Shown here piece after piece: positions 6,204 to 27,377 of a stretch of DNA of 64,000 nt. The translations under genes and the position numbers were made by a program. Below the pieces are notes generated by a model that searched no databases, was not told the origin of the DNA, and was given only the letters and a program-made list of their open reading frames with translations. The stretch is taken from the NCBI RefSeq assembly GCF_030811555.1, contig NZ_JAUSQZ010000001.1, forward strand, positions 2,415,241-2,479,240. The letters are read 5' to 3'. The DNA is from Kineosporia succinea. Lineage in GTDB: Bacteria; Actinomycetota; Actinomycetes; Actinomycetales; Kineosporiaceae. How positions within the stretch are numbered: position 1 is the first letter of the stretch; every line of letters starts with the position of its first letter.

Positions 6204-6968
6204 GTGCCCGTCGAACCTACTGAGCAAGAGGCGACCGCGGCCCGGACGGTGTTCGGGCCGCGCATCGACCTCGCGCACGCATACGCCAACGCCCTGGCCA
6301 CGGCCGGTGTCGAGCGAGGGCTGATCGGCCCTCGCGAGGCCGACCGGATCTGGGAGCGGCACCTTCTCAACTGTGCGGTGCTCCAGGAGCTCGTACCCGA
6401 GGGCGTCGAGCTCGGGGACGTCGGCAGCGGCGCCGGCCTGCCCGGTATCCCGGTCGCCATCGCCCGGCCCGACCTCACCGTCTACCTGATCGAGCCGATG
6501 CTGCGGCGGGTCACCTGGCTCCGCGAGATCGTCGCCGAGCTGGGCCTGACCAACGTCGAGATCATCCGGGCCAAGGCACACATCGTCGCCGAGTCCAAGC
6601 AGCACTTCGACGTCGTCACCTCACGCGCCGTCGCTGCGCTGCCCGCCCTCGCCGAGTGGTCGATGCCCCTCGTCCGCAAAGACGGCCAGCTCCTGGCCAT
6701 CAAGGGTGACTCCGCCGAAGAAGAGCTCGCGGCCGCGTCCGAGCTGCTCGCCTCGCTGGGGGCCGCTTCGCACGAGGTCGTCCGTTGTGGCGAGTCGGTG
6801 CTGTCCACGCCCACCACGGCCATCCGCGTGGTGGCCGGCCGTGAGGGCCAGCTGCCCAAGAAGAAGAAGAAAGCCGCTGCGCCGGCAGCCGCAGGGCCCA
6901 AGGCCTCGGCCAAGAAGAAGCCCGCCTCCCGCGGTGGCGGACGTCCCAATGCAGGACGACGCGGCTAG
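6204..6968 (+). CDS. rsmG: 16S rRNA (guanine527-N7)-methyltransferase RsmG
   Basis: SAM-dependent methyltransferase that makes m7G527 in 16S rRNA (GidB). The SAM site is seen in GDVGSGAGLPGIPVAIARPD, with the family motif VTSRAVAALPALAEW downstream. It starts at GTG 6204, 6 bp after khpB. The product is 254 residues; the last 40 form a Lys/Ala/Gly-rich basic tail (KKKKKAAAPAAAG) not needed for the fold, probably an RNA-binding extension. A strong hairpin follows and closes the rpmH-rsmG transcription unit. Confidence 0.95.
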   Translation: MPVEPTEQEATAARTVFGPRIDLAHAYANALATAGVERGLIGPREADRIWERHLLNCAVLQELVPEGVELGDVGSGAGLPGIPVAIARPDLTVYLIEPMLRRVTWLREIVAELGLTNVEIIRAKAHIVAESKQHFDVVTSRAVAALPALAEWSMPLVRKDGQLLAIKGDSAEEELAAASELLASLGAASHEVVRCGESVLSTPTTAIRVVAGREGQLPKKKKKAAAPAAAGPKASAKKKPASRGGGRPNAGRRG

Positions 6969-6988
6969 TCGCGCTCTTCACTCGCCTC

Positions 6989-7020
6989 TGTTGGGGCGGA
7001 CCAGGAAGTCCGCCCCAACA
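6989..7020 (+). terminator. terminator after rsmG
   Basis: Perfect 12-bp stem: TGTTGGGGCGGA (6989-7000), 8-nt loop, TCCGCCCCAACA (7009-7020). It lies 20 bp past the rsmG stop, with no T-tract, as is common in high-GC actinobacteria. Confidence 0.75.
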
Positions 7021-7256
7021 TCTGGTGCCTGATCCGGTATCTGCCGTGCATCGCATCCCGCTCCGGATCGGCGGCTCCCCATCTGCCTGGCCGAAGTCGA
7101 TCCGCCGGCTGTGGACAGCCTGACCTGCGGCGTCCCATCGCTCGCTTCGGCGATCACGCTGCGTCTTTGGAACGGCCGCACCCAGTCACGTCTCGTGACT
7201 CGTAGGGGCGTCAGCCACCTTTGTGCACAGCCCAACCGACGCCCTGTGTATAGCCC

Positions 7257-7265
7257 TGTGGATAA
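7257..7265 (-). promoter_or_regulatory. DnaA box downstream of rsmG
   Basis: TGTGGATAA is a perfect consensus box on the minus strand. Related words lie nearby: TGTGGACAG near 7110 and TGTGGAAAA at 7434-7442. Confidence 0.45.
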
Positions 7266-7931
7266 GTGCTGTGGGTTGTGCACATCCCGAGTCCGAACCT
7301 GCCTCCGAGTGCCGTGTCGTGAAAGGTTTGCATGCCACGCTCGTGGTTTTGACCTGCGGCTTCATGACTGCTACCGGATCGGCAACCATCCACGTCGGCT
7401 GTTGATGCCGCGACCTTCCACAAGCCCGCTCCTCTGTGGAAAAGCCTGCCGTCAGCCGGGCCTGCGGGCGGTTTCAAACAGGGTTTTGCACAGCGGTGGG
7501 AAGTGGCAACTCTGGTTACGGTGCGAAAGCACAGGTGCCTGACTCCTTGCCCGGCCTGACCAGCTGCGTCAGCGAGTTGGTGGCTGCGGTTCCCGTATGG
7601 GCCACCTGGCTGCCACCTGCGCGTCATCTCGGCGGGGGATGCCTCTCAGCGGGCGCCGATCATGCGCGCGGCTTCAGGCGCTTGATCCTGTGGCGGGGGA
7701 GGCGAAGCTGTGGCGTAACCCATGCGGTGTGATTTGCATGGGTCGAACTCGGTTGAGCCCGTCGGCCGCCTGGTGCCCTTGGCGCCCGGTCTCGGGCCCC
7801 TTCTTGTTGGTTGTTATCGTCATGACGAGGGCGGATCGCTCATACCCCGGTCTGTAGGGCGCCGCGTCCCTAGGTGCTGGCCGTCTGAGTCACCAGGCTG
7901 CCCCGGGCTAGCTGTCCCGTGTGCGCTGCCG

Positions 7932-8183
7932 CGGTGTCCTGCGTTCTTCGCCGCCGCTTCGGTGCCACGCGTTCTTCGGTGCCAGCTCGGTGTCCTGTGT
8001 TCCTCGCTGCCGGTTCGGTGCCCCGCGTTCCTTGCCGCCGGTCCGGAGCCACGCGTTCTTCGGTGCCAGCTCGGTGTCCTGTGTTCCTCGCTGCCGGTTC
8101 GGTGTTCCGCGTTCCTTGCTGCCAGTTCGGTGCCCCGCGTTCTTTGCTTCCAACGCGGTGTCCCGCGTCTCTCGCTTCCCTCG
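7932..8183. repeat. 28-bp tandem repeat array, nine units
   Basis: Nine contiguous units of exactly 28 bp, each starting CGG(T/A)G, begin at 7932, 7960, 7988, 8016, 8044, 8072, 8100, 8128 and 8156. The shared core resembles GCGTTCYTCGCTGCC. Units 2 and 5, and units 3 and 6, are nearly identical, so there is an 84-bp higher-order period (for example 7966 and 8050). There are no spacers, so this is not a CRISPR array. Open frames through it on both strands encode repetitive, unlikely peptides. Confidence 0.9.
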
Positions 8184-8882
8184 CTGCCGACCGCCGCGTC
8201 TGGCAGTCGGCCGTTCTCGGCCCGGGGGGCGTCCTGGGCCGGCCCGCTCGCGGGCTGAGAAGGCAGCCGCCCGTGTGCGCCTCGTGGGCAAGTGGGCTCA
8301 GCCTGTTTGCCCGGCAGGGGCTTCGCTCAAAGATTTGGCAGGCGCGGGGGCGGTTCTTAGGGCCATAAACATCGGCTCGCATCCTCTCCCGCCGGCGGTC
8401 GGACAGGCTGCGACCAACTTGTCTGAAGCAAGCCAGTCGGTCGCATGTGACGTCACTAAGTCTTGAGGTGGTGGCCACCGCGAGATGCGTCGTCCACCAG
8501 AGGACACACCACCTTCGCTCCCTCCATACCCCCTCCTGCCGGCAAGTCAGCACCCCAGTGCTTGGCTTGGCAGAGAGACACTGCTTGGCCCGGCACCAGA
8601 CAGTTTCTGGCCAGAGCGACCGGGTGGAGGCTCACGTCCTTTGTGAGCGGCCTTTGAAGGGGTCTTCAAGGCCGGAAAACGGAGTGTCAAAGGGTCTGGG
8701 CTTTGACGGTAATTCCAGCCCTCGTGGAGGCGTCCAGAGCTTTGGGGGCACTTCCTGCAAGGCCTCAGCATGGACACAAGGCGAAACGCTGACGCAGCAT
8801 GCCTTCAGCCGTGCCGGACACTAGGCAGGCACATGCCCCGAGAGCTGCGCTTAACCCTGCGGGGGCGCAAGGCTCGCCTGCA

Positions 8883-8896
8883 GTTTCACGTGAATC
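8883..8896. promoter_or_regulatory. parS: parS-like site 1
   Basis: GTTTCACGTGAATC differs from the palindrome GTTTCACGTGAAAC at one outer base. The same variant recurs at sites 2 and 3. It is a predicted ParB loading site. Confidence 0.75.
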
Positions 8897-9152
8897 ATCT
8901 CCGGTCACCTCGGTGCGCCCCGGCATCATCGGCACAAAGCCTTGGGCGGCAGGGCAGTCTCGTAGGGACAGGCGGGCCCGCTTTGGGGCGTCCCCGGCCC
9001 CTGGAGGTTCAAGGCTCTCAGGCAACCGACGCAGCAGCGTCGAGCGAGACCCATCTCCGCCCGACGCATTGGCTCGGCCAATGTTGGACGTGGTCCGAAA
9101 TAGATCGGCCATTGCATTGCGCATCTGGCAGTGGAGCGGTCGCATCAGTCCG

Positions 9153-9584
9153 TGCCGCCGTGCCGCCGTGCCGCCGTGCCGCCGTGCCGCCGTGCCGCCG
9201 TGCCGCCGTGCCGCCGTGCCGCCGTGCCGCCGTGCCGCCGTGCCGCCGTGCCGCCGTGCCGCCGTGCCGCCGTGCCGCCGTGCCGCCGTGCCGCCGTGCC
9301 GCCGTGCCGCCGTGCCGCCGTGCCGCCGTGCCGCCGTGCCGCCGTGCCGCCGTGCCGCCGTGCCGCCGTGCCGCCGTGCCGCCGTGCCGCCGTGCCGCCG
9401 TGCCGCCGTGCCGCCGTGCCGCCGTGCCGCCGTGCCGCCGTGCCGCCGTGCCGCCGTGCCGCCGTGCCGCCGTGCCGCCGTGCCGCCGTGCCGCCGTGCC
9501 GCCGTGCCGCCGTGCCGCCGTGCCGCCGTGCCGCCGTGCCGCCGTGCCGCCGTGCCGCCGTGCCGCCGTGCCGCCGTGCCGCCG
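9153..9584. repeat. octanucleotide array, block A: 54 copies of TGCCGCCG
   Basis: 54 uninterrupted, apparently perfect copies of TGCCGCCG fill 432 bp. Because 8 is not a multiple of 3, all reading frames stay open with an eight-residue period (AVPPCRRA on the plus strand), which creates long false ORFs. The complementary strand reads CGGCGGCA and is rich in GG runs. The array borders block B without a gap and lies between parS-like sites 1 and 2. Confidence 0.97.
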
Positions 9585-9768
9585 TGCCGCTGTGCCGCTG
9601 TGCCGCTGTGCCGCTGTGCCGCTGTGCCGCTGTGCCGCTGTGCCGCTGTGCCGCTGTGCCGCTGTGCCGCTGTGCCGCTGTGCCGCTGTGCCGCTGTGCC
9701 GCTGTGCCGCTGTGCCGCTGTGCCGCTGTGCCGCTGTGCCGCTGTGCCGCTGTGCCGCTGTGCCGCTG
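9585..9768. repeat. octanucleotide array, block B: 23 copies of TGCCGCTG
   Basis: Directly after block A, 23 perfect copies of TGCCGCTG (184 bp) follow, differing from block A by one C-to-T change at the seventh base of every unit. The sharp switch suggests that one mutated unit was later amplified as its own block. Confidence 0.97.
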
Positions 9769-10000
9769 TGCCGAGTCCTTGGCCTCTCGTGGCCAGACTT
9801 CGCAGGCTGGACCAAGACAACAAGCCAGCGAGCAAGCGTTCTTAGACCGGCGCCGGTCGCTCGACACTCTGCCGTGGAGGCGTCGGCCAAGAGGTGCGGA
9901 ACGAATGATTCCTAGCGCAGGCTCGATCAACGCCGACGTCGTCCAGTCACGGAAATTGGCGCCCCCAAACCGCTTTCGAAGCGTTACCTCCTTCGAGCCG

Positions 10001-10014
10001 GTTTCACGTGAATC
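10001..10014. promoter_or_regulatory. parS: parS-like site 2
   Basis: GTTTCACGTGAATC, the same single-mismatch variant as site 1, lies 1.1 kb from it on the other side of the octamer array. Confidence 0.75.
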
Positions 10015-10983
10015 CAGATCTCGGCGACGCGCGTCAGCTTCAAGGAGGAGAAGAGCAGCGGCGCGGGAGGGCAAGCTGCCGGCGCAAGGCTTTCCACGCA
10101 ACGGCTTACGAGCATCGAGCGGTGTTGCCACTTGCTCCCGTCGGTTAACCCGCCGCGTCCTGCTTCTCACGGGCAGCTCTGGTTCAACGAGGATGCCGTC
10201 CCATCGAAGATCCCAACCTGGCTTAGGAGCGACAGATGACATGGGGGATAGGGCACGCGGCTCTCCACTCCTAAGGGATGACAACCCTGAGCTCACGCCG
10301 GGCAACCGGTCCGGCAGCGGCCGGGTGAGCATGAGAAGTAGCGCCGCACGAGCGCGGCAGAACATGCATCCGATCCGCCAAGACGCCGGCGACGAGCATT
10401 CGCTTCACGCTGATCGGGACCGCCACGTCCACGCGATGCCCCGGTTCGAGGTTGTGCTGGATCCCGACGCCCAGTCAGAGGCACCTGGCCTCTGATGCGT
10501 GCATGCCAGAAGGAGCTGCCTTGAAGAATTAGCACTGGCCCCGATGATCGGCTGGCGGCATTAGTCTGTGCCGCAACTGGCCCGGTCAAGACTGAGCAGC
10601 GCCAACTGCCTTTACACCTGTACGTAGGCCTATCGAACCTCTGTGCTGTAGGTCGAGAGTCTGTTGGATACGCATGGTCGTGCGTCTACTAAGGCGACGG
10701 CGGGATCCCTGAACGCTTGTTCAACAAGGTCCGGCAACGTCAATCGACTCAGGGCGGAGAACCAGGAAATGAAAGCTCTCTCCACAGAGGACCGGTTCCG
10801 ACGCGAGCATCCCAGCTCCAAGCACCTAAGCGCATGGCCGGTGAAACCTCACTGATCGGTCTGCGCATCGACAGCGAGGGGCAGATCGGTTGGATGACTT
10901 AGATGTTGGTCTGCGCTCCAGCCCGGTAACTCTCGTCGGTGGAGGCGGCCCTACCCATGCTCTGCCTGCTAGACGGCAAGTGC

Positions 10984-10997
10984 GTTTCACGTGAATC
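10984..10997. promoter_or_regulatory. parS: parS-like site 3
   Basis: GTTTCACGTGAATC, the same variant as sites 1 and 2, lies 1.0 kb past site 2. Confidence 0.75.
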
Positions 10998-12186
10998 GAC
11001 TGCCACCCGTGTACCTGAATGAGTGCTGCCGATCGGGCTTCGATTCGGTGGACAAGGAGCTCACTCACGTTCAGCGCAGGACGTGATCAGTACGCGGGAA
11101 GCGGTACGGGAGCACGCCCGCAAGCTGGCCTGACGAATTAGCTGCAGGGTGCAACTCTCTACAGCCGCTGAGCTTGGAACGACTTGTAGAGAATGCACGG
11201 ACGCTGACAAGCGGTAGCAAGAATGACTCAATCTGGCCCAGGACGTGGGCGAGGCCAAGGGGCCCTCAGCGGCGACACAGGGCGACCTCAAGAGGTGGCC
11301 TGGAGCTACCTACGAAGGTGGGTGAGATGCGGCCAGGCCCGAAGAGTTATCCGCGTGGTGTGCGCGTCCGAACAGCCGGACGCAATGACTAGCCGCGCCG
11401 AGCGGGCCAGAAGTCATCGATGGTCGCCGCCGGGTGTGCGTCTCGAACGCCAGCGGCGAGGGGGATGGGCAAGGCCGACTGATCATCCGCAGATGAGTTG
11501 CTCCCGCATTGCGCCGGGCTGCACCAGCGCCGCAGGTAGGTGGCGCTCAGGACTCAGCGAGCGTCTTGCCTCGGCCTGTCAATCCGAGACTATGGTCCGC
11601 TCGTGGATACGAAGCCGCCGAGGATCTTGCGGGCCTTGTATGTGCTCGCTGAGACGATGAGTGAATAGGCCAACATGCTCGCTACCTAGCTAGAGCCGTT
11701 GCTCGCTCGCCTCGGACGACAAGGGTCGGTTCGATCACCCAGTCGGCTTGAGCTGTTGCGCAGGTATCTCGGCCGGCGTTTCAGGTCTTGGCTGGACCTG
11801 CAATTCCATAATGCCTAGGCGCTGGTGGCCGTGAGGCACAGCGGTACGCCATACATGGGTAGTCGAATTGCCAAGCCGGGTTCTGGATATATGAAGAGAT
11901 TTGTGGAGGACGCCGCCGTCCAACGTTGGGGCCCGAGGTTCGTGACCTCGAACGGCGACGCGACCGTGGACGCGGTGACCGGCGCCGATCTCTCATGAAT
12001 CGACGCTGAGGAACCGCCGACAGACGCGGAGGCTGTGGCCTGTCCGCTTGTCTGGTCATTGGTTTCGATATCGCTACGGGCGCCCGGATAGGACGAAGGC
12101 TGTTGCATGACTGAGGGGACGCGCAGTCTGGGCGTGTGGTGAGAGTGTCGGCGGTCAGCCGAGCAGCGGGCAGGTGGCCGACCGGC

Positions 12187-12200
12187 GTTTCACGTGAAAC
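12187..12200. promoter_or_regulatory. parS: parS site 4 (perfect)
   Basis: GTTTCACGTGAAAC is a perfect palindromic ParB-binding consensus, flanked by C and G (12186-12201). Confidence 0.9.
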
Positions 12201-13110
12201 GCACTTGCTGGATTGACTCGGGGATAGAAGAGCTAGCACGAGGACCCGTCCCATAGCGCCGGGTGGGCTGGCGGGTGCTTCCAGGCCCTGCGAGTAAGCC
12301 GTCGATCTAGCCAAGTAGCTATCAACGGGGAGCCATCGCGAACCGTCAGACCGAAGCCGCAGAAGGCCGGGCAGCGCCGAGCGTGTTCGATGGCCCGAAT
12401 CCTCGCCTTGGCCTGGACACCCCTCATGCTCAGCCGGGTCGTTGACCACGGCGAAGAGCTTCAACTCCTCGCGCCGCGAGACCATCAGGTGCGGCGGGTG
12501 GACGTTATCGCTAGCTTGCCAGTGCCAGCTCGCTTCCTGCTGAAACTGCCGAGCAATGACCGGACGCCATCCCGCGGGGATCTACGGCTATCGACAGGGG
12601 GAACGCGTTTGGCCCCATGGTTGTGAGAACCGGGCTCTCGGAGCAGTGCGACCCTCGTGGTGAGCGCCGGCCTACCAGTTCACGAGCCTCCTTTCGAACT
12701 AGAAGGTCGTCGGTAGGGGGTACGCGGCGCAACGCATCCGCCTCTAGGACGTCTCAGAAGCAGAGACGAGTGTCGTTCGAACCGCCGTACTTAAGAGGGG
12801 CGCCGACGGTCAGGGCCTACCGCATCATGCGGCCGCGTAGAGCACGCCTTAATAGCCTCTGCCAAGGCGAATTCAATTGGGTGGGCGGCGTCGTGGATGC
12901 AGGATGTGGCGCTCCTCGAGGAAGGCTTGAACGGAGCATCAATGGCAATGGCCAAGTTCAGCCCTCTTCGCTACTGTCCCCTGCTTCATGTGTCAGGCCA
13001 TCCGAGCAGCGAGCGAGATGCGCAGGCAATGATCTCAGCTGTATCAACGCGTCTTCACGCGACGCATGGATCCGCCTGTCTGGCTGCCAGCAGTGAGGAT
13101 GACTCATGAG

Positions 13111-13124
13111 GTTTCACGTGGAAC
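13111..13124. promoter_or_regulatory. parS: parS site 5
   Basis: GTTTCACGTGGAAC matches the Bacillus-type parS core exactly (reverse complement GTTCCACGTGAAAC). Confidence 0.88.
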
Positions 13125-13987
13125 GGAGGATGAGCCCACCTGGTTGGACGTTGGGTCCTGCACGTCGATCCCGGCCGCCAGCTGGGTCCAAGGAGTCGCC
13201 GGCATGCGAGGCCGCCTCTGCCAGGTGCTCGGTTCCGGTGGCTGGCCTGCTCGATGACGAGGTGGCCTTCACCGGCCGACGCCCTGCTCCCCGCTCGGAA
13301 GACAGGGCCGTGAACCTATTGGCTGCGGACGCGACCAAGCACGCTAGCCGAAGAGCCTGTACGAGAAACGTTCACGGATCACCCCTGGGGCTCTTTGCAT
13401 GGAGTGTTCGCGCGCCCCATCTCACGGGCTTGAATCGTCAGACGTGCTGCTCGCTCTCCAGCCGCATATCCAGGAGAGCGAGGACCAGCCTGGGTGGACG
13501 GGGTACGCCGCGCTGAAACACCCGACTACGAGTCGATCGTGGAGATGGCGAGCTGTCCAAGTTGTTGTCGACCAATGAACCGAGCCATCCACAGATTCGT
13601 CCACGGCCTGTGCAAACTCTCCGGCCTCGAGCGAGCGGCCGATCGTCGCCCCAGCTAAGTGGACCCACCTTCCTGTCGGATGGGTTGTGCACGCCCTGAG
13701 ACAGACGGTGAGAGAGGTTGCTCAGACCGCGATTGAGGCTTCCCGCCTTGACAGACCTGAAGATCAGGAGCTGCCGGGCGGAGCGGAGACCTTCGGTAGC
13801 TCACACACGCAGGCCGCGGTTCCCGGCCCACCCTGACAGCTGCTCTGCTCCCCGCCTTGATGAGCGGATACACGTTCACCAAGGCCCCGGCGCCAAGAAG
13901 GCCGTTGTTCATTTCAGCACTTCGACGTTTCCGCCAGACGCCGGCTCTCCCGTGCGACGGCACCAGCTCGGCCTTCCCCATCCGAAC

Positions 13988-14128
13988 TCAGGCCGTAGGG
14001 CGGTGGCTGTCATCAAGCTCGACCCGCCTGAACCACAGCCGCCCTGGGGTCTCGGTGAGATCGAAGTTCTCAGCGACTTGGCCCGTGGTCCTGTCGCCTG
14101 CTGGCACAAGGGCCATGATCCTGGGGCC
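13988..14128 (-). pseudogene. IS3-family OrfA-like fragment
   Basis: On the minus strand this piece reads RIMALVPAGDRTTGQ then VAENFDLTETPGRLW, ending in a stop near 13988. That pattern resembles the helix-turn-helix part of IS3-family OrfA (AGDRT-GQVA--FDLTET-VR-WV). No start codon or C-terminal leucine zipper remains. It is opposite in strand to the OrfB remnant nearby, so it may come from a different element or a rearrangement. Recognition is from family memory only. Confidence 0.45.
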
Positions 14129-14269
14129 TTGAACTCCTGTGTGAAAGACCTGCATTCCTGTGGCTTCTTTTCCCGTGCCTTCTTCTTGCCATGACATGCG
14201 TGATGAAGATCGTCCAGGAGCCACCGCGCCGACGCAACGGACCAGGCTGCGGGTGAAGTCCCCCCGCGA

Positions 14270-15046
14270 CGGTGACGCTTCGGTCTTGGCGGAGCAGATC
14301 AAGGTCAGTCAGGCCGCCGCGAAGGGGCACTACGGATCCTCGCGCATTCACGCCTACCCAGGCTGTGTTCGTCGCGTCGGCTGTGATCGTGGCCAGCGTG
14401 CGTTCCTCGGCCAGTGAGGGCAGCAGCAGGGGGAGCGGGATCAGGAAGGCCAAGACCACGGCGGACGAGGTCGCGGCCGCGAGCAGGTTAAGACGCCAGC
14501 GCACGGCTCACCTGGCGAAGCTGCCCGCCCGATGCGCCGCCCGGGAGTCATTGGCAAGCACCGTCGCCGGTCTCGCCGCACAATGACCGTTGACTCGCAT
14601 GCTGCCGCGCGGGCGGATCTGAGTGGGCAGGACATCAGCGTCGATGCCGGCGCGATCAGCACGCGCCAGTGCGGCGACATCGCCTACGTCCGGATCTGGG
14701 CCGGCTGGTTGTTCCTGGCGACCGTCATCAACAGAGCCTCCGCCGGGTGGTGGGCTGGGCCGTCGCCGATCACCAGCGCACGGACCTGGTCGAGGACGCC
14801 CCGCGCCACGCCATCGCCCGGCGGCTCCCCGGCCGGGGTGATCTCTATCCGACCGAGGCCGTCAATACGCCTCACACCAATTCGTCCGCGCAGCAACTTA
14901 ACTTAGTGTTCGTTCATGACGTGGCCGCAAAGGTCAGTGCTGGGATAGCGCCGTGGGCGAGTCGTTCTCCCTGCCAGCATCAAGACCGCATTGCTCAACG
15001 CGGTCTCTTGGCCGACCAGACCACCACGGCCCCGGCGATCTTTGAG
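14270..15046 (+). pseudogene. IS3-family transposase (OrfB) remnant
   Basis: Pieces of an IS3-family DDE transposase follow in order on the plus strand but in shifting frames. VLAEQIKVSQAAAKGHYGS and SSRIHA (about 14280-14345) match the N-terminal helix. GDIAYVRIWAGWLFLATVI (about 14675-14735) holds the first catalytic Asp. After a frameshift comes RRVVGWAVADHQRTDLVED (about 14738-14800). GRKGQCWDSAVGESFS (about 14924-14971) holds the catalytic Glu. After another shift, IKTALLNAVSWPTR lies near 14983-15025. The segment with the middle Asp is unrecognisable, and about 150 bp of unrelated sequence sits at 14350-14505. It is clearly inactive and is the only mobile-element trace I can identify in the gene-poor region. 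Confidence 0.75.
14361..14504 (-). pseudogene. possible histidine-kinase N-terminal fragment
   Basis: The minus strand reads MRWRLNLLAAATSSAVVLA then a hydrophobic run and SLAEERTLATITADA. This is the look of the first membrane helix and start of the sensor region of an actinobacterial sensor histidine kinase. After about 48 residues the frame runs into the complement of the transposase remnant, so only a fragment exists. It appears to lie inside or between pieces of the IS3 remnant. The identification rests on general resemblance and is tentative. Confidence 0.3.
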
Positions 15047-15391
15047 TCGTCGAAGGTGAGGACAACCTCCGCCGACACCGCTTCCGCGTCGGCTATCTCA
15101 GCCTCGGCGCGTATGAGCAGTCCGCTAGCTTCGGCGGTCACCGGGCTAGCCTGACCGACACAACCCGCCTGTTCGCCACAGTGGGCCACGGTCAGACTGC
15201 TTTCGGAGCTGGCACAAGACCGAAGCAGGACCTCTCATGCCGGGCTCGTCATTCATCAACAACGCCGTCCACAAGCCAGCTCTCCAGAGGTTCTCCGCTA
15301 ATGGCCGGCCTGGTCTTGTCCCCAAGTTCTCCACAGAACAGTTTTCCCCAATGCGCAGGTCAAACGACTGTGACGGTGAAACTGCACAGCG

Positions 15392-15400
15392 CTATCCACA
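15392..15400 (+). promoter_or_regulatory. DnaA-box-like site
   Basis: CTATCCACA is one base from the consensus TTATCCACA. It is isolated in the gene-poor region, with CTCCACAG nearby at about 15330. Confidence 0.3.
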
Positions 15401-16239
15401 GGGTTCGATCTGGCCGATCTTGGCTGTGCACATTGGGGGTAAGGCTGGGGATTTGGCCTCATCCCTCGGTTGTGACGAGGTCCTGGACCTCAGGACGGTG
15501 AGAGTCGTCGAGTCCATGTCGCGCGCCGAGCGCAAAGCATGAATCAGGTCGCGCTTGGTTGATCTATGGGGCCGGGCCAGCGTCAAGAGCTTCGGGCGAA
15601 CGACCAACGTGCTGACGCATGGCCTCGGGTGAGCTGAGGAGTCATGCGCCGATAAGGATCGTCGGTCCGGCAGAAGTATTGCATCAGCCTAGGCTGACCT
15701 CGCTGGTTGGACTGCCCAATCGGGTACGGCATTGCCCGGCCGAGACATTGATGTGCCGGCTAGAGCAGTAGCCCTCTTGGCGGTGTGCCGAGGCGATAGA
15801 TAGGTGATCACGGGGGACCTCCGAGCACTCCGTTCTAACGTGCGGAACGGTTGGTGGAACCTCTCCCCAAATCCTCCAAGCCGAACTTGTTTCGTCGGAG
15901 CGGACGTGCTGGCGCTTTCCCACAGGCCTTGTTCAGCGGTGTGGACTAGCAAGGATCATGATCGCCGGTGCCACTGCGAGCTGATTCAAATGCGGTGCCG
16001 GGATCTCGATGCACGGTGTCGGCCGGCTCTGTCGAGAAGGTCGCGGCTGAACGCAGGACGGACTCAACTCCGTCGGTAACACGCAACGACGCGCCGACAC
16101 ACGCTCAGGAGACGACGCCTCGCAGCCTCGGGCATCGACTGCGCGAACGGTAGTTGATGGAGGGTGTGAACGATGATCGGCAAGTTCGGGAGAAGACTCG
16201 ATGTCAGGGCTACCAGCTTGACCAGTCGGTCTGGGGGTC

Positions 16240-16253
16240 GTTTCACGTGAAAC
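16240..16253. promoter_or_regulatory. parS: parS site 6 (perfect)
   Basis: GTTTCACGTGAAAC is a perfect palindrome. It is paired with site 7 only 76 bp away (start to start), the closest pair in the window. Confidence 0.9.
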
Positions 16254-16315
16254 TGAACGGAACCGGCGGAGGCATATGCATGCGCCGCACGGACCGGCAG
16301 GGGTCATGGGTCAGG

Positions 16316-16329
16316 GTTCCACGTGAAAC
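16316..16329. promoter_or_regulatory. parS: parS site 7
   Basis: GTTCCACGTGAAAC is the exact Bacillus-type parS core, in the opposite orientation to sites 5 and 10. Confidence 0.9.
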
Positions 16330-16713
16330 AAGACGCGTCGGACCAGGTGCTCGTCGGGTGAGGTCAACCGGCATGCCCGGGCCGAGTACTGCCGTTCGAT
16401 CGAGAGTCATGCAACACCCCGGAGGTGACGTCCGAGGGGTCATGACATGAGAACGGTCAGCGTCCCCACGAATCCACCCTTGGTCTTTCGGAGCTACGCC
16501 CCTTGCGATCGCATGGCTGATGGCCGGAACTTGCCCTAAACCGATTGCGCTACGAACCCGCTAGAGCGGCAGAGATCCCGTGAGGGGGAGGCGTAGCCGC
16601 TTGCTAGACCGTCTTGGCGAATGTTCAACCCCGTCGCCCAGCCTGGATGAACCAGAACGGCAGGCTAATGGCCCGCGACAGCCAACGAGGACCAGAATCG
16701 ACTGGCCAACACC

Positions 16714-16905
16714 TCATTTTCGATTGCTCCGGCGATGGCTAGCCGAGAGGCACGGTTGAAGGCCCTCGTGGCTACGCCGCAGATCTTGGACCTCTTGGGT
16801 GGGGGACGCGAGGAAACCAGCGGACTGAAAGATGCTCATAAGCAGTCGGCCGGCCAGTGAGTTGATCAACAACACGGTGTCGGCAACTCCGGCAAGGTCG
16901 AGCAT
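16714..16905 (-). pseudogene. 63-residue ORF, possible PIN-like fragment
   Basis: The minus strand from ATG 16905 reads MLDLAGVADTVLLINSLAGR and goes on for 63 residues to a stop. The D-x-x-LLINxLAGRL pattern followed by an SPTQEVQDL segment is reminiscent of the start of PIN-domain toxins. It is far too short for one (about 130 residues), there is no ribosome-binding site, and no antitoxin is visible. It could equally be chance. Confidence 0.2.
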
Positions 16906-18507
16906 CCCAGACTCGCGACATATGGAGGTGAGTGATCCACTTCCACCCCGACATAGCCAGTCCGAGGAGGGGTGGCTTTCTTCTCACGGAAACGACAGCC
17001 TGTGCCCGGCTGAGCTGATGCCACCGGGGCTCAACGTGGCGTGTACGTGCGGTGGTGCATCGCGATGCACCGGACTGTAAGCCCTGCACGTCGTCCCGCC
17101 CATTTGTCCATAGGCAGCGTCTGACTCACCTGGCGGGGTGTGAATCCAGGATCCCTCTAGACCGCTTGGCTCCGGTAGGCGTGCCCCGTTGCAAGCGTCG
17201 CTGAATGAAGCGGAAAGAGGGGAGCATGTTCCCGGGTTGAAGCGGTGAACATCCGCAGCCTGGCAGACATCACGCGCCGCGAGGTTGGTCGGACGCCGGC
17301 CGATAACGACATCGGTGAGGTGCGCGTCCCGTGGACAAAGCGATCCAAGGCGCAGGAGCTTGACATGGACGCTCCGGGCGCTGCTGCGGCCGCGGGGAGT
17401 TGTGGATGTGCTCGGAGGAGTACTGCGTCGCCAACCTGCGCTGGCACGACCTTCCTGCGCAACTGCATCCAACGTCGCGGCGTCCAGCTTGCTATTGCCA
17501 GGCTCTCAGCACGCTTGGGTAGCAGAACCACTAGGTGGTCGACATCATCAGCGATGATCAACTATTCCTGATTGCAGTCGACGGAAGTGTCGGCGCTGAT
17601 CCATTGAAGCTACTCGCGCAAGAGATCGAGTCTCCCACCGCGCGTCGATCGCTTGATCATCTGTGATGCTGTCGGACGTATACCGAGGTATCTACCGGTC
17701 GAGTTCCGTGGGTCAGCGGAAGCATCAATGTTGGCTAGCGTCGGGGATACCTGCCTGCGGGGCAGGCCAGAAGCCAGCCTGTCGGGAACCCGATGGCGGA
17801 GCAGTAATACTCGCCGGCACCAATCCACCGCGGAATATCGCTATCGCAGGAGAGCAGGAGTCGAGGCGAGAGCCTGAGTCGGCTCTTGTTGACTGAAGGT
17901 ATGAGCACGCGCCCAGGCCGAAGGCGGTCGAGCACCTGAGCATGTACCGCTGATCGTTTTGCGGCAGTAGTGGTAGCTGGCCGCCACGCGTCTAGCCGCG
18001 ACGCGGCAATCGGCGCCTCGCGTGTCCGTTTCCAGCGGAGTCGATATGGACGCCACCTGAATTCCTGAGCATTGCTACGTCTCGAAGCCCGCATGAGCTT
18101 GCGCGAGGCAAGTTCGTGGTGCTTCCGCCTCAGGTTGCGGCATCGAAGCCCAGTGGTCGGGCTTCGGCGACACCTCATGACCGATTCGCGCCTTGTGGAT
18201 GATCGGGTGTTCAAGCTTCGCCTGCCAGATCTGTGTCATCACCAACCAAGACACAGGTGGGGATTGCGCGGCACCCTCGACGGGATTCCGGCCGCCACGT
18301 CGTCCGTTAGGGCGTCCTAGACGCGAGACAGCGACAGGCATGACCGGCAATCAAGGTGATGATTCTGCATCGGTTGAGGGGACCGGGGCACGAGCTGCTG
18401 GGCCGCACGTCGCCGATCTAGGTGGCGCTCTCTTCTTGTCTATGCAGCAGCTTCGGTGTTCTGACCTGGGATCGAGGCGCCGTTAGCATGCGTCGGCCGG
18501 CAGCTTG

Positions 18508-18521
18508 GTTTCACGGGAAAC
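18508..18521. promoter_or_regulatory. parS: parS-like site 8 (degenerate)
   Basis: GTTTCACGGGAAAC has one mismatch (T to G) in the central CACGTG core. The outer half-sites are perfect. Binding may be weaker. Confidence 0.5.
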
Positions 18522-21500
18522 CATCCTCGGCAAGGAAGCGAGCCGCGTCGCTTCCGAACGATTCCGGCGCGCCGGTTAGGGCATGGATGGATGCCTGGCT
18601 TGCCTTGCGATTCCTAGTGATCAGTGACCATGCGATGGGGTCGTTATAGCTCCGGTCCGAGCCTTGGTCGTCAAATGGCAGGGGGACGGGCAGCGGGCTC
18701 GCGCGCGCCCAAGTATGGGGCCCGCAGGTAAGCGCCAGGCAGGGAAGATTGCCGTCGACCGACCGGGCGTCGGGCTGCCCATGGGAATGCTGACCTCGCA
18801 GGCTGGTGGTACGACTCCTTGAGCCTCGAGCACTGCAGATGGCCGTTAGCGGTGCATAGCTCAGTGAACGTTGGAGCCGACCGTGGCGGTGTTGGCTGAG
18901 GATGGAGCGGATCGCAACGGTGGTCCAGCTAGGAGATGAACCTGCCTCCGTGGTGTGAGGTTGTTGGCCGTGCCCGAGGTTGGATCCGGGTCACAAGCAT
19001 TGCCGACCGAGCAGCCAGACTCATGCTGATCACCGGCCCGAAAATGGTCCGGCCGCCTAGGTGAATCCAGTGAGAGGCCTGGCCTGGGCATTGCTGACGG
19101 AGTGCTCGGGCCTGAGGTGCAGGCCAGATAGACAAGGCTAGGCGTGGGCCGCTGCGTGAGTCTTGGCGTTCGGGCTGTGCGATCCGCTGCTGCCCGCGCC
19201 CACTCCGTTCACCACATCTTCGCTCTGCGCCCCGCCACCGTGTCCCACGCCGCCGTCTCTTCGCCCACAGATCATCCTCTCCACTGCATCACGCTCCCAT
19301 GTGTCGCTTCGCCGTACCTTGGATTTGCAGGCGAGAACTGACAGCACTCGACGGTTTGAGACGACGGCCCCTGCCGAACGGAGGTGTCATCAATGAGTCT
19401 CGACAGCACCGCGCCCAGCCGCCCATGGACCGATAGCGAGATCTGGTACCTCCCATTGATGCCGGACCAGCCTTCTGAATACTGCAGTTCAGGTGGACGG
19501 CTGGTGCGGGCGGGGCGAGCACCCGAGGTCGGAGTCGCGGCTCAACGCGCGGTCTCGGGTTGTCAGAACGGGCCGTCGTTCGTGAACGCGGTGGTATCGA
19601 AGTGCTGCCGAAGCAGGCCGTCAGCCGCTACTCCTACCGCCGGCGTCATGTCTTCTCCTCTCCACCGCACCTCTGCGCGGTACGCCCAGCTACGGCAATT
19701 CCCGCTGCCGAGAGCGACGCGATCGGGTGGGAGGAGTTCGCGCTTTCCTAGGGCTGTCATAGGAACGAGAGGGCAAGGCATCTCGGGGTGCGGAGGAAGA
19801 AGAGCACGGAGGGACGGGCTGCGATACGAGGGCGCGTGGAGAGGATGCCCGCGTAGTGAGGGGCGGGGGAGAGCCTCCTGGCCCGGTCGGAACTGGGTGG
19901 CGAGGGCGATGCCGGTGACCAGGTCGAGCATCCGGTCGGCCCCGACGGCATGGGTGCCGTGCCGAGAGGGGGTGCGGGCGTCACCCGCCCTGAACCTAGA
20001 ACCGCTCGCAGACCAGGCCTCCTACTGAAGGCCGGCATCCATAACTGCGTGGGCTTCTGACTCAAGGCGCCGCGATACCGCACAGACTCAATTGATCTCG
20101 ATCTCCAACTCGCCGGTGCCGTGGCAGGACACCGGAGCTGCGGCGCATGACAGGTCGGGTACCGATCAACCGAACTCCGCAGGGCATCGCCATCACCGGG
20201 CGAGGTACGAGGAGGCGAAGGATGGTGGAAGGGGTCCAATTGGCGGGAGGCGATGAGAACGGCGCGGCGGAAGACTGCCTGCCAGGTAGGCCCGCATAGC
20301 AGTGCAGCGCATCCGCCAGGCGCAGTGGCGAGAGAAGCGATGGGGAGGCGCTATGGCGAGAGCCATGGTGGCGAGAGGGGCTCCGCGTGTAGGGGAAGGT
20401 AGTCGGTGTGACGGCCGCGAGGACCGCCATACGCCGGCAACGGATACGGGGGAGTCGTACAGCTTCGGGCTAGATCTCGGTGTGAGACCCCGGGCGCGGA
20501 GAAGTCCGGCTTGTCGAACGGGAGCCGGGGCGCTGGTATGGGAGAGCACGCAACCTGAGTTCCAGAGCCCCGTCCAGTATGAGTTGGGGGAGGGGAACGC
20601 GGGGAACCTGTGCCTCTGAACCGTGAAACGGAAGAACTCGCGAAGACAGATACGAGCTGGCCCGACACACGAGGTTCAGGGAGCTGGGCCGTCCAAGAGG
20701 ATGACGGCTGATTCCGACTCAGCAGGCGTTACCGGAGTCAGCGAAGATCTGGCTGATCCGGGGATGGCTGAGTTGAGTCGTCTCGCGATGAGAGGTTGCA
20801 CGCGGTCTGGTTGACGCTTGGCGCTTCTGGCGTCTGCGGACGACAGCGGCTGGCAAGCAGGCCCGGACACGAGGACTGGCTGCGTTGTCGGGCCCGGTGC
20901 TCATTGGCGATGCAAGATCCATTCGTCCGCGGCGGATCGTGGCTGGGCCGTAATGTTGGCGGTCGCCTCAACGCCAGGGCGCTTCCTCTTGAGCAGCGGA
21001 TCCCCGATGTGTACCGCGCTGCTGCCGGTCCAGAGTGTCGACGCTGCGTGCCCTGACGGTGGCGCCCAATGCGGGCGACGCGTCAACCATGTTCCGTACC
21101 CCATGCTCAGCCCCACTCGCGACATCGCATAACACTCGACCGGTGCCCTGCAGATGGTCTCCGTGAGACGAGACGTGGTCGCGCTGGTTCTGTTCGGGAG
21201 GATCTGATGTCGGATCTTGATGGGGTGCGGGCCTTGTGGAGTCGCGTCGTCGCTGCAGACCGGTTTCCCCACAGGCGAAGTCCCATCCTTGAGCCGGCCT
21301 GATGGCGATGCCCTTTTGGCCGCGGGGGAGCGCACCCGCCCTCGACACGAAGGCCTCGCGATTGGGGTGCGGCGCGGTGTCTTGAGAAAGCCGTGCCACC
21401 CTAACGTCGTCTCGATACCCGCCACTCCCTTAACCAGGTCCGAGCATGACGCTGGCGTTGTGTCGAGGAGCGCGAGATCGTTGGGCCTCCGGAACGGCCC

Positions 21501-22137
21501 GGACAGGGGTTCGGCAAGCCCCTTGAAGAATCCGTTCCATCGACTGAGCTCGTGGGCGACGCCGCTCCCCGTCTGCGCCGAAGGATGCCGCACCCTCGCC
21601 AGCCGTCGGCACACGACGGGTACCGGTAGAAGTTCTGGCGTCTCGAGGCACCGGTGTTGGGACTGCCGCAGGGCCATGAAGCCAGCCTTCGAAGGACGCC
21701 TTTAGAGACTTCTGTCGTTGCGAGAGCAGCGGTTTCGGACTGGCGCGTACTCGTTGCGCATCTTCGTCGCCGTCGCTATCGGCCAGCTCATGGTCCGGAG
21801 GATCAGCGCAAGAGCGCCGAGCGGGGGGCATAGCGCTCGTTCGACCGAGGCGTCGCATGTCTTTCTGACGCGCTGCGACCCTTGGCCCTAGTTCGAGCAA
21901 TAGCGAAGTGGCACTGCGAATGCCCCTCCGGATCCAGCCTGCCCGAAGTTCGAGAGCGAATGAGTTGGCCGCCCCTACGAGCGTCCGTGGTGCTGGCTGA
22001 TGCTGGGGCCCGGTCGATCGTCAGCAGACCGACCGAAGTTCGCACCAGGCGTGGGAGCGTGGGAGCCGCAGCCTTGCTCAGTACAGTCGGTCAGTCCGAG
22101 CTAGGTTGCCCGACCTACGAGAAGCCCCATGGCCGAT

Positions 22138-22151
22138 GTTTCACGTAAAAC
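22138..22151. promoter_or_regulatory. parS: parS-like site 9
   Basis: GTTTCACGTAAAAC has one mismatch in the right half. The flanking bases extend it to the 16-bp form TGTTTCACGTAAAACA. Confidence 0.65.
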
Positions 22152-22653
22152 AATCCGGCAGGGACGCAGTCGGCGAGGGCGGGCCGCGGGGCGCGAAGCG
22201 ATTCGAGATCGCACCAGCCTCCCTGAAAATTACGTGAGGGGGGCTAGTCGTTGCCTGCACCAGGCCGAGCTCGCCCTCAGCCGCAAAGGCGTGGACTTCA
22301 AACAGGTGTGGGGAAAGGCTGTGGGTAACTCCATGGCCGAGGGCGTGTGGGGTTCAGGCCAATGCCGCCAGCCGTCAAGGGCTTCGGACTTTGCCGCGCC
22401 GGGGCCAACTGGCAACCCTCTTCGCGGGGATCCCTGAGGATCTGCACGCGTATCACGGACGGTCTGTTGACGAGCTTCACCGGTCCGGGACCACGGGCCA
22501 TCCCTGCGGCGTGGGGCAAGATAGAGATGGTCCGCAGCCGAGGGCCTGAGAACTCACGGATGAGCTGGACACGGGGTCTGGCGAAGCAGGGGAGCTCGCC
22601 GGCCACGTTCCTAGGAACCGGGTGAGGAAGAGAGTCCATGGCCTAGCTTTCTC

Positions 22654-22734
22654 GACGCAGGCGACGCAGGCGACGCAGGCGACGCAGGCGACGCAGGCGA
22701 CGCAGGCGACGCAGGCGACCCAGGCGACGCAGAG
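22654..22734. repeat. 9-bp tandem repeat array
   Basis: Seven perfect copies of GACGCAGGC start at 22654, 22663, 22672, 22681, 22690, 22699 and 22708. A variant GACCCAGGC (22717) and a decayed unit (22726) follow. As a multiple of three, it reads as (ATQ)n on plus and (SPA)n on minus, in short frames with no sign of being genes. Confidence 0.93.
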
Positions 22735-23123
22735 CCGGCGAGCCGTTCGGTCGGCGGGTTTTCATAGTCCCGGGCCGCGGGTTGGCAATGGCAGGGCGTC
22801 ACTCTTCTCCTGCGTCGGCAGGCTCTCTAGCTAGTTGCTGCGTGGCTCCTTTTAGGCAGCCCCGGTGCCAACGCCGAGGCCGCCTGCTCGTTGCCATCTG
22901 GCCCCAATGAGGTCCAGTGGCCCATGAGGCTCCGGTCATAGAGAGAGCTCTTTGGCTGACCGAGGCGGGTGCCGAGGGGACTTTTCCCACTTGGGCGCGC
23001 CGGGTAGCCGACGGATCAGTGGCGCTTGGCAGCCAGCGGCCGCTTGATCGGCCAAATGCGTAGCGCCTGGCTCCAACGAAACGGTGCCCGCCATACACGG
23101 CCTCATACGCCCGAGCGGCGTGT

Positions 23124-23174
23124 TGTGGACAAGCGATGGAGCTGTCACTGCGGGCCGTTAGACAAGTATCCACA
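23124..23174. promoter_or_regulatory. DnaA-box pair in the distal parA upstream region
   Basis: TGTGGACAA (23124-23132, reverse complement TTGTCCACA) and GTATCCACA (23166-23174) lie in opposite orientations. They form the outer part of a DnaA-box group that continues at 23484 and 23596-23635. Confidence 0.5.
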
Positions 23175-23255
23175 TGTGACTAATGACTGTGGAGACAACC
23201 CGAAGCGGCACCGTCTCGGCGACGTACGCCGGGAGCCGGACGCCGCGCGGAGCGT

Positions 23256-23269
23256 GTTTCACGTGGAAC
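23256..23269. promoter_or_regulatory. parS: parS site 10
   Basis: GTTTCACGTGGAAC is an exact Bacillus-type parS core, 430 bp upstream of the parA start, among the DnaA boxes. Confidence 0.88.
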
Positions 23270-23483
23270 GGAGAGTGCTGTCCGACGGTGTTGATCGTCT
23301 TGCTGGCAGTCACGGTGCTCACCTGAGTAGTGACTCGTAGTACATCCGGCCTGCCGACGCCGGTAATCTGAAGTCCTCGTGATTGACTTGAGTGGTCACT
23401 GGTAGTGGTCTCCCCGTGCGATTCGAGTAGTCGATGGCCAGGGGATTGATGCCAGTAGAAACGCACATCGAACGCCCTCGGCC

Positions 23484-23492
23484 TGTGGATAA
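23484..23492 (-). promoter_or_regulatory. DnaA box upstream of parA
   Basis: TGTGGATAA, a perfect consensus box on the minus strand, lies about 200 bp before the parA start. Confidence 0.55.
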
Positions 23493-23595
23493 AGCTGATC
23501 ATCCCCAGGTGTGGACGGCGGCGGTGGAACGTTGTGTTCGAGGCCTTGACCTGCCTCGATGGAGCTCATTTGAGATCCGGCTGCGTTGAAGAAAG

Positions 23596-23635
23596 TTATC
23601 CACACTTATCCACAGCGAGTAAAAGCTGTGGATAG
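23596..23635. promoter_or_regulatory. three DnaA boxes in the parA leader
   Basis: Two perfect TTATCCACA boxes on the plus strand (23596-23604 and 23606-23614) are tandem with a 10-bp period. An inverted box TGTGGATAG (23627-23635) follows. The group ends 63 bp before the parA GTG, so DnaA binding could affect parA transcription. Sequence is directly seen; effect is inferred. Confidence 0.7.
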
Positions 23636-23698
23636 ACACACCGATGCCGGCCGTTGCGAGAGATGATGGTTCGGGGCGGGACGACGGAAGGGACGTTG

Positions 23699-26297: not shown

Positions 26298-27377
26298 GTG
26301 AGCGACAAGCGTAGAGGCTTGGGGCGAGGCCTCGGAGCGCTGATCCCGCCGCCGCCGGCGGCGCGGCCCGCTGGTGACCGACCGGTCGATGTTCTCTTCA
26401 ACGAGCGTCCGGAGGGCGAGGCCTCGGCCAGCGACGAGGGCAAGGTCGAAGAGACCGCCGCCGACCAGCCGGAGAAGGGCCAGGAGACGCCGGCTCCCAA
26501 GGCCAGCACTCCGGAGCTGGTTCCGGTGCCCGGTGCCTACTTCACCGAGCTCCCGGTCACCGCCATCGTGCCGAATCCCCGCCAGCCGCGGTCGGTGTTC
26601 GACGAGGAGGCGATGGCCGAGCTGGTGCACTCGGTCAAGGAGATCGGCGTCCTCCAGCCGATCGTGGTGCGCTCGGTGCCCGGCTCGGGCTCCGGCGGTG
26701 ACGCGTCGTACCAGCTCATCATGGGCGAGCGGCGCTGGCGCGCGACCACCGAGGCCGGCCTCGCCACCATCCCGGCGATCGTCCGGGACACCAACGACGA
26801 CGACCTGCTGCGCGACGCGCTTCTCGAGAACCTGCACCGCAGCGAGCTGAACCCGCTCGAAGAGGCCGCGGCCTACCAGCAGCTGCTCGACGACTTCGGC
26901 TGCACCCACGAGGTGCTGGCCACGCGCATCGGCCGCTCCCGCCCCCAGATCAGCAACACCATCCGCCTCCTGCGTCTACCGCCGCAGGTGCAGCGCCGGG
27001 TTGCCGCGGGTGTGCTGTCGGCCGGCCACGCCCGGGCTCTGCTCGGTCTGGAGAACGCCGAGGCGATGGACGAGCTGGCGTCGCGCATCGTCAAGGAGGG
27101 CCTGTCGGTGCGCGCCACCGAAGAGGTCGTCCAGCTCTCCGAGCCCAGCGACGCGTCCAAGCCCCGGGCTCGCAACAAGCCCAAGGCCGGTGGCCGCAAC
27201 GTGGAGCTCGACGAGCTGGCCAACCGCCTCGGCGACCGGCTCGACACCCGCGTCAACATCGCGCTGGGCAAGGCCAAGGGCAAGCTGAGCGTCGAGTTCG
27301 CGAGCGTCGAAGACCTCAACCGCATTCTCGACGTCCTGGCCCCTGACCTGCGTAAGGCGTTCCAGAGCGGCGAGTAG
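26298..27377 (+). CDS. parB: chromosome-partitioning protein ParB
   Basis: CTPase/DNA clamp that loads at parS and spreads. Motifs in order in the 359 residues: an N-terminal [13 protein letters not shown] segment for contact with ParA, then box I NPRQPR (about 94-99). The CTP-binding box GERRWRA follows (about 143-149), then the helix-turn-helix region with [15 protein letters not shown], and a C-terminal dimerisation domain ending LRKAFQSGE. It starts at GTG 26298 with GAGGAG close upstream. The 217-bp gap from parA holds palindromes CCGCCGATCGGCGG (about 26159-26172) and GTGACCGGGTCAC (26194-26206), possibly regulatory. It should bind the parS sites in the neighbouring gene-poor region. 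Confidence 0.97.

Follow-up and report, generated by a model that had tools for sequence, protein, structure and literature searches.

Why are rsmG and parA separated by 16.7 kb of DNA in Kineosporia succinea, and what does this DNA do for the chromosome? The interval (positions 6969-23698) lies in the window, by which we mean the whole 64,000-nucleotide stretch analysed (positions 2,415,241-2,479,240 of an 8.07-Mb genome assembled as one contig, here G000). An earlier note had described it as about 16.7 kb without a supportable intact gene, carrying parS sites at intervals of about 0.1-3.6 kb, three tandem arrays and several DnaA boxes, and on each of these points our analysis agrees. We conclude that the interval is probably the chromosomal ParABS centromere of Kineosporia, spread over gene-free filler, based on the following observations: parS sites are in vast excess over expectation, are conserved and adjoin parAB; most parS of each genome fall at this locus, their variants keep their order and, with DnaA boxes and one motif, they make up all the words that the species share; interval length rises with the number of parS; and enlarged parS-bearing intervals recur in another family.

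A search with the palindrome GTTTCACGTGAAAC, allowing up to two mismatches, gave 11 matches in the whole window, all with no or one mismatch, where 0.04 would be expected. Ten lie between rsmG and parA at spacings of 76-3630 bp, and the eleventh is inside parA. The cognate genes stand directly downstream, as in a ParABS centromere: the open reading frame (ORF) at 23654-26080 holds the ParA (AAA_31) domain and that at 26298-27377 the ParB domains. Genome-wide there are 14 sites with at most one mismatch, 11 of which are at this locus, within about 26 kb of the DnaA-box cluster of the dnaA-dnaN gap, and all 14 are within about 210 kb of it, which makes them origin-proximal. Across the six Kineosporia genomes, 57 of 67 such sites fall between rsmG and the ParA ATPase domain (locus/genome: G000 11/14, G001 8/10, G002 10/12, G003 10/11, G004 8/8, G005 10/12), and the same palindrome read backwards has no match in any of the six. 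Every species contributes its parA-start site to the locus counts, and G003 and G004 each contribute one further site in the parA extension. For G004, five of the eight come from another contig, 6.9 kb long and without a called gene, which we infer to be the middle of its rsmG-parA interval. The order of the variants is largely kept: sites of the AATC type are mostly near rsmG, G001 having the one clear exception, and those of the GGAAC type are on the parA side; only 6 of 20,000 within-species label shuffles were as extreme. Two outlying parS, at genome positions 2495624 and 2621451, lie about 73 and 199 kb from rsmG; G002 and G005 each have sites at comparable distances, and G003 has a match for the nearer one.

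The interval is enlarged (about 9.6-17.8 kb; that of G005 includes 75 N) in all five Kineosporia that have it on one contig, with rsmG-parB distances of 19.3, 20.1, 17.5, 12.5 and 18.3 kb; in the sixth, G004, it is split. It is therefore not the recent debris of one strain, nor is the extra DNA confined to this genome as prophage or insertion sequence (IS) remains, an outcome that the earlier note had named as fatal to its proposal. The sequence itself has been replaced. In blastn comparisons within the genus, rsmG and parAB align at 77-88% identity and the gap aligns at short footprints only: about 7221-7366 (four of five relatives), 15279-15403 (two of five, G002 and G005) and parts of 23306-23808, running into the start of parA. 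The method can see conserved non-coding DNA, since in the dnaN-dnaA gap it recovered a 720-880-bp oriC core in all four relatives compared. Twelve-letter words common to at least four of the six gaps (G004 entered as its two contig ends) number 33, against a mean of 0 in ten Markov controls, and every one of them is a piece of parS, of a DnaA box or of one motif around CCGCAGGTCAAAACC. By sequence comparison, then, what the species appear to conserve is parS, the DnaA-box elements and this motif, and little else.

The interval behaves like non-coding DNA. With codon usage learned from 20 sampled stretches of G000, a model finds no coding signal over 6966-25129, the last 1.4 kb or so of which is the low-complexity N-terminal part of parA. 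The rsmG-parA stretch is the longest of 608 called non-coding in 843,243 sampled bases (10.5% of the genome, window included); the next are 5.1 kb (containing a 23S ribosomal RNA (rRNA) motif), 4.7 kb (containing an 881-residue ORF that the model overlooked) and 3.4 kb (dnaA-dnaN). The model can miss foreign-looking genes, as with that 881-residue ORF (L147 331-2976, near 2.64 Mb) and several Pfam-positive ORFs in locus L122, and its non-coding calls in the window, though not all those in the sampled stretches, were checked by other means. With the 8-bp array (8901-9800) excised first, the longest open frame is 266 residues, compared with 304 +/- 53 in 200 Markov shuffles, and frames of at least 100 residues number 73, compared with 69.7 +/- 6.3. 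We rejected hidden genes after comparing 104 stop-to-stop frames of at least 85 residues with Pfam, NCBIfam and PHROGs, together with Pfam on ten ORFs; the only credible family match is one IS3 fragment, for which there is also one PHROG 157 transposase match in the interval. Matches to Prion_octapep (best 1.4e-12) and Fibrinogen_BP (1.4e-5), three members each, are presumably repeat peptides of the 8-bp array and were discounted, as were weak matches to PcF, HOASN, Orexin, TILa and GcrA (0.0013-0.01). All tblastx pieces inside the gap score below 60 bits; they hit DnaA-box element 1 or 2, the 8-bp array or scattered short stretches, and the small E-values of a few are taken to be summed statistics with the flanking genes. 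No Rfam family matches the interval. No promoter was found in it, where 2.1 +/- 1.4 would be expected, a difference that is not significant, and we rejected promoter depletion as a sign of silence.

These searches bear on the idea that the interval is what remains of a prophage, an integrative element or a degenerated gene cluster. It has in its favour the IS3 fragment and four short stretches (66-148 bp) that resemble other places in the genome at 81-91% identity. Such an island would be expected to leave remains over most of the interval, whereas we found one fragment of about 200 bp in 16.7 kb, the other open frames have no credible match, and the enlargement is present in all five species with unrelated sequence. 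We consider this origin most improbable.

Other members of the family have shorter intervals: in five of seven both genes are on one contig, and the rsmG-parB distance there ranges from 4.2 to 7.1 kb. Its median is 1.17 kb in 138 further members of the class, six of which exceed 3 kb (nine of 147 genomes were dropped: two without an rsmG match, two without a parB match and five split over contigs). Among 80 named loci we scored 71, the other nine having no rsmG match on the locus (the three named Kineosporia species among them). In 67 of these 71, from Kineosporiaceae, Cellulomonas, Phycicoccus, Nocardioides and other Actinomycetales and neighbours, the stretch from rsmG to the ParA ATPase domain holds one to eight parS, a placement shared with Kineosporia; the length of that stretch, however, has a median of 1.17 kb and a maximum of 6.3 kb, compared with about 11-19 kb in five Kineosporia. 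Over the 71 non-Kineosporia loci, interval length rises with parS number (Spearman 0.71, no phylogenetic correction), and adding the five Kineosporia gives 0.77 (rounded lengths; counts that include two-mismatch sites).

In another family of the order (f19), the interval is long and carries parS in all five sampled genomes, the distance to parB being 3.5-12.7 kb. One of them, G172, has an enlarged rsmG-parA interval and 14 parS on the locus, nine of them within a tandem array of about 287 bp upstream of parA (L122 about 7488-10105, on G172:C5; Tandem Repeats Finder period 287 at 8766-9819). The array matches itself at 68-72% over 400-2400 bp in blastn, and the eight steps between its nine parS are 275-301 bp except one of 502. 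Adjacent units over 7539-10046 are 75-86% alike at aligned positions, compared with 65-70% for shuffled units; the end units are not clearly above shuffled. Apart from one 36-bp match, the array is absent from the other 28 genomes drawn from the genus. An array of this sort is one route by which a locus can gain parS and length at once. The likeness to Kineosporia is the enlarged, parS-rich interval. The difference is that G172 also holds ordinary genes there, about 4.4 kb being left between the DUF6226 and GNAT genes, and that self-comparison of the Kineosporia intervals revealed no parS-bearing array like this one.

The strongest competing explanation accepts that the parS are functional and holds that the long spacers are merely tolerated: a gene-free place near the origin in which decaying IS and slippage arrays accumulate, the length itself having no function, and in which deletion is restrained since random deletions would often take a parS or a DnaA element. 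Several observations fit it. The spacer sequence is not conserved between Kineosporia, the IS remnants belong to different families (IS3 in G000, DDE_3 in G005, IS4/5 DDE in G003), the tandem arrays differ by species, open-frame statistics equal those of shuffled sequence, parS spacing is irregular, G+C is like that of ordinary intergenic DNA, and the dnaA-dnaN gap is long too (about 2.7-3.8 kb in five Kineosporia). However, the length stays at 9.6-17.8 kb in all five one-contig species although the sequence has been replaced, and enlarged intervals with more parS are found in another family too. Moreover, rRNA and missed-ORF stretches aside, no other non-coding stretch in the 843 kb exceeds 3.4 kb, so deletion works elsewhere in the genome. 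We regard mere tolerance as a serious possibility, a little short of an even chance.

How a centromere spread over gene-free filler could work can be outlined. ParB loads at parS, closes with cytidine triphosphate (CTP), slides and recruits more ParB. In the portions of PMC9242446 that deal with spreading, it reaches to about 15 kb from parS, and a roadblock halts its sliding in vitro on stretched DNA, bypass being possible on slack DNA. In Kineosporia, ParB dimers would load at 10-11 parS, with 0.1-3.6 kb between neighbours, in a gene-free field of 15 kb; each would close with CTP, slide along the flanking DNA and recruit further ParB, so that one partition complex would form, be pulled by ParA and presumably load SMC. 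A dense ParB complex would cover the whole stretch, here between a strong hairpin behind rsmG and a parA that reads away from it, and the three DnaA-box elements may tie the field to replication control or to parA expression. The filler would be free to change, turned over between species by IS insertion, slippage arrays and point mutation, while site number and rough order would persist. We lean slightly towards the view that both the lack of genes and the wide spacing are of use in themselves, as a transcription-free run for ParB clamps; filler that is tolerated because deletions would cost sites is not much less likely than such a runway. That filler length and silence are themselves selected, that parS and DnaA elements are the sole sequence-specified parts, and that such a regional centromere has evolved at least twice (in Kineosporia and in the family of G172, once by way of the parS satellite of about 287 bp) is a bolder proposal, which we think rather unlikely.

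Several points weigh against the centromere reading or its runway step. Spacing between parS has a coefficient of variation of 0.60-0.81 in five Kineosporia, with no sign of selected phasing, and we rejected regular phasing on this ground. The correlation of parS number with length, uncorrected for phylogeny, partly reflects that longer DNA has more room for sites. The G+C of the gap (0.644) is near that of ordinary intergenic DNA of the genome (0.662), as for neutral filler. In PMC9242446, in vivo ParB profiles are described without strong change near genes; the part of PMC10387095 that models the ParB profile does so well without transcription. For Corynebacterium glutamicum, one parS is given as sufficient for chromosome folding and growth in the corresponding section of PMC7083940.

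The DnaA-box elements raise another possibility, that the interval is mainly a region for DnaA titration or replication control and its parS are incidental. A locus of the datA/DARS type combines clustered DnaA boxes with a binding site for a DNA-bending protein; here there are elements of two to four boxes, two of which contain the motif CGCAGGTCAAA. Element 1, a same-strand pair of boxes 176-179 bp apart, is present in all six Kineosporia, as are at least three boxes upstream of parA (element 3). Element 2 has a blastn footprint in G002 and, inverted, in G005, with the boxes 65 bp apart in these two and in G000, and a related element occurs in G001; it was not found in G003 or G004. The inverted copy (L001 8303-8391 in G005, matching 15316-15403 of the window) shows that inversions occur inside the interval. 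The five other family members scanned have zero to two single boxes from rsmG to parB and no cluster like element 3, one of them (G007) having its single box just upstream of the parA frame. The motif or a near match lies between the boxes of elements 1 and 2 (7348-7358 and 15354-15364), and it occurs four times in the genome: in these two elements, in the 5' part of the dciA ORF (genome 2408305), left of dnaN and among further DnaA boxes, and at 4.59 Mb. Three of these occurrences, all close to the origin, have flanking DnaA boxes. Read backwards as a control, the word is found five times; the number is therefore ordinary and only the placement is unusual. The elements and the motif speak for a replication-control region; on the other side, parS outnumber DnaA elements and occur across the family and beyond, parS-bearing intervals without DnaA boxes exist, and the main DnaA-box cluster with its conserved core is in the dnaA-dnaN gap. 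As the principal role of the interval, replication control is in our judgement very unlikely.

The interval is not oriC. The earlier note had placed it on the border of both oriC and parAB; parAB is indeed directly downstream, but dnaA, rnpA, yidD, yidC, jag and rsmG (about 8 kb) separate it from the main conserved DnaA-box cluster, at genome 2.4131-2.4140 Mb or thereabouts, to the left of the window in the 3.4-kb dnaA-dnaN gap. That note had also taken the repeats to be part of the centromere and named conserved parS and arrays without conserved ORFs as the pattern that would support it. Conserved parS and DnaA boxes without conserved ORFs are what we find; each of five Kineosporia species has arrays of its own, with other units at other places, and the rest of the G000 genome has many short-period arrays as well (24 rows in 827 kb), so we rejected the arrays as centromere repeats. 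The intervals of G000, G002, G003 and G005 (four of five species) together hold five arrays that are rich in G+C and have a period of 8, no two with the same unit, and only one of the 24 rows elsewhere in the genome has this period. A role in origin folding, also proposed in the note, is plausible by analogy with ParB and SMC biology.

A eukaryotic regional centromere consists of kilobases of gene-free, fast-evolving DNA, and its identity is epigenetic, without conserved sequence-specific sites. Kineosporia shares the gene-free, fast-evolving DNA, but its parS sites are sequence-specific and conserved; the term regional centromere is apt as a description and goes no further. Nor is the arrangement a new type in every respect, because parS clusters upstream of parA are already known. 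Myxococcus xanthus, with a 9.1-Mb chromosome, has many parS upstream of parAB near the origin, 22 within a 3.12-kb probe in the relevant part of PMC3899335 and 24 in that of PMC3778016; Kineosporia differs from what these parts describe in having 10-11 sites over 15 kb with neighbours up to 3.6 kb apart, DnaA-box elements in the field and sequence turnover between species. The actinobacterium C. glutamicum has ten ori-proximal parS, nine of them intergenic, and a ParB-dependent folding hub; its sites, as set out in sections of PMC7083940, span 35 kb at a distance of 73 kb from oriC, and one of them falls within a gene, whereas those of Kineosporia form one gene-free block beside parA. Our literature search turned up no account of an enlarged gene-free parS interval, which is not proof of absence and leaves the wider record of parS-interval lengths uncovered; the features for which we found no account are the gene-free spread over 10-18 kb, the turnover of filler with conservation of sites, and the DnaA elements within.

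Table 1. Features of the rsmG-parB region (window coordinates)
Feature	Position	Strand	Remarks
rsmG (gidB)	6204-6968	+	Left boundary, reads toward the interval; Pfam GidB 1.3e-51
Perfect 13-bp hairpin, terminator-like, without T tract	6989-7020	+	Directly 3' of the rsmG stop; stem search
DnaA-box element 1	7257-7443	-	Boxes 7257-7265 and 7435-7443; GGTTTTGACCTGC between, 7345-7357
28/84-bp tandem array, species-specific	7932-8176		Not found in the four relatives scanned
parS 1	8883-8896		GTTTCACGTGAATC
8-bp tandem array, 78 copies, species-specific	9150-9773		Three of four relatives scanned have other 8-mers
parS 2	10001-10014		GTTTCACGTGAATC
parS 3	10984-10997		GTTTCACGTGAATC
parS 4	12187-12200		Perfect palindrome
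parS 5	13111-13124		GTTTCACGTGGAAC
Decayed IS3-family transposase fragment	14523-14729	+	NCBIfam NF033516 6.7e-5 (22 bits; the cut-off is 160)
DnaA-box element 2	15327-15400	+	Boxes 15327-15335 and 15392-15400; CGCAGGTCAAA at 15354-15364
parS 6	16240-16253		Perfect palindrome
parS 7	16316-16329		GTTCCACGTGAAAC
parS 8	18508-18521		GTTTCACGGGAAAC
parS 9	22138-22151		GTTTCACGTAAAAC
9-bp tandem array, species-specific	22653-22732		Array search of the window
parS 10	23256-23269		GTTTCACGTGGAAC
DnaA-box element 3, parA upstream region	23484-23635		Boxes 23484 (-), 23596 (+), 23606 (+), 23627 (-)
parA, long low-complexity N-terminal extension	23699-26080	+	Right boundary; Pfam AAA_31 7.9e-57; start codon inferred
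parS 11, within parA codons (VSRET)	23780-23793		Same site in 6/6 Kineosporia
parB	26298-27377	+	Pfam ParB_N, HTH_ParB, ParB_C

The flanking genes are well conserved in the genus, rsmG being 80-84% identical in all five other Kineosporia. A stem behind rsmG is present also in G005 and G003 (9 or 19 bp), and none was found in the other three by the stem search; with a stem of at least 9 bp in only three of six species, we rejected a terminator as a conserved feature. On the right, a conserved start block in Kineosporia suggests that parA probably begins near 23696-23699, and the N-terminal ParA peptide is conserved in all six species. The ParA extension (23699-25200) is an open frame of 387-994 residues ahead of the Walker motif in the six Kineosporia; its conserved peptide reads GTLVSDLGWPSAALKRMANGLGWPK...VSRET, and GWP motifs are found in several other family members too. 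One guess is that the extension may bind a polar anchor. In the dnaA-dnaN gap (genome 2411915-2415307 in G000), whose flanking genes dnaA and dnaN are confirmed by Pfam, the sequence outside the conserved oriC core is mostly unalignable.

The locus addresses an open question, whether transcription and bound proteins limit the spread of ParB clamps and whether a centromere gains from empty DNA. Kineosporia is a natural experiment in this respect, with spacer sequence replaced and sites kept, and class members whose rsmG-parB distance is more than tenfold shorter serve as the contrast. The conserved DnaA-box elements within the parS field offer a place to test the coupling of segregation to replication.

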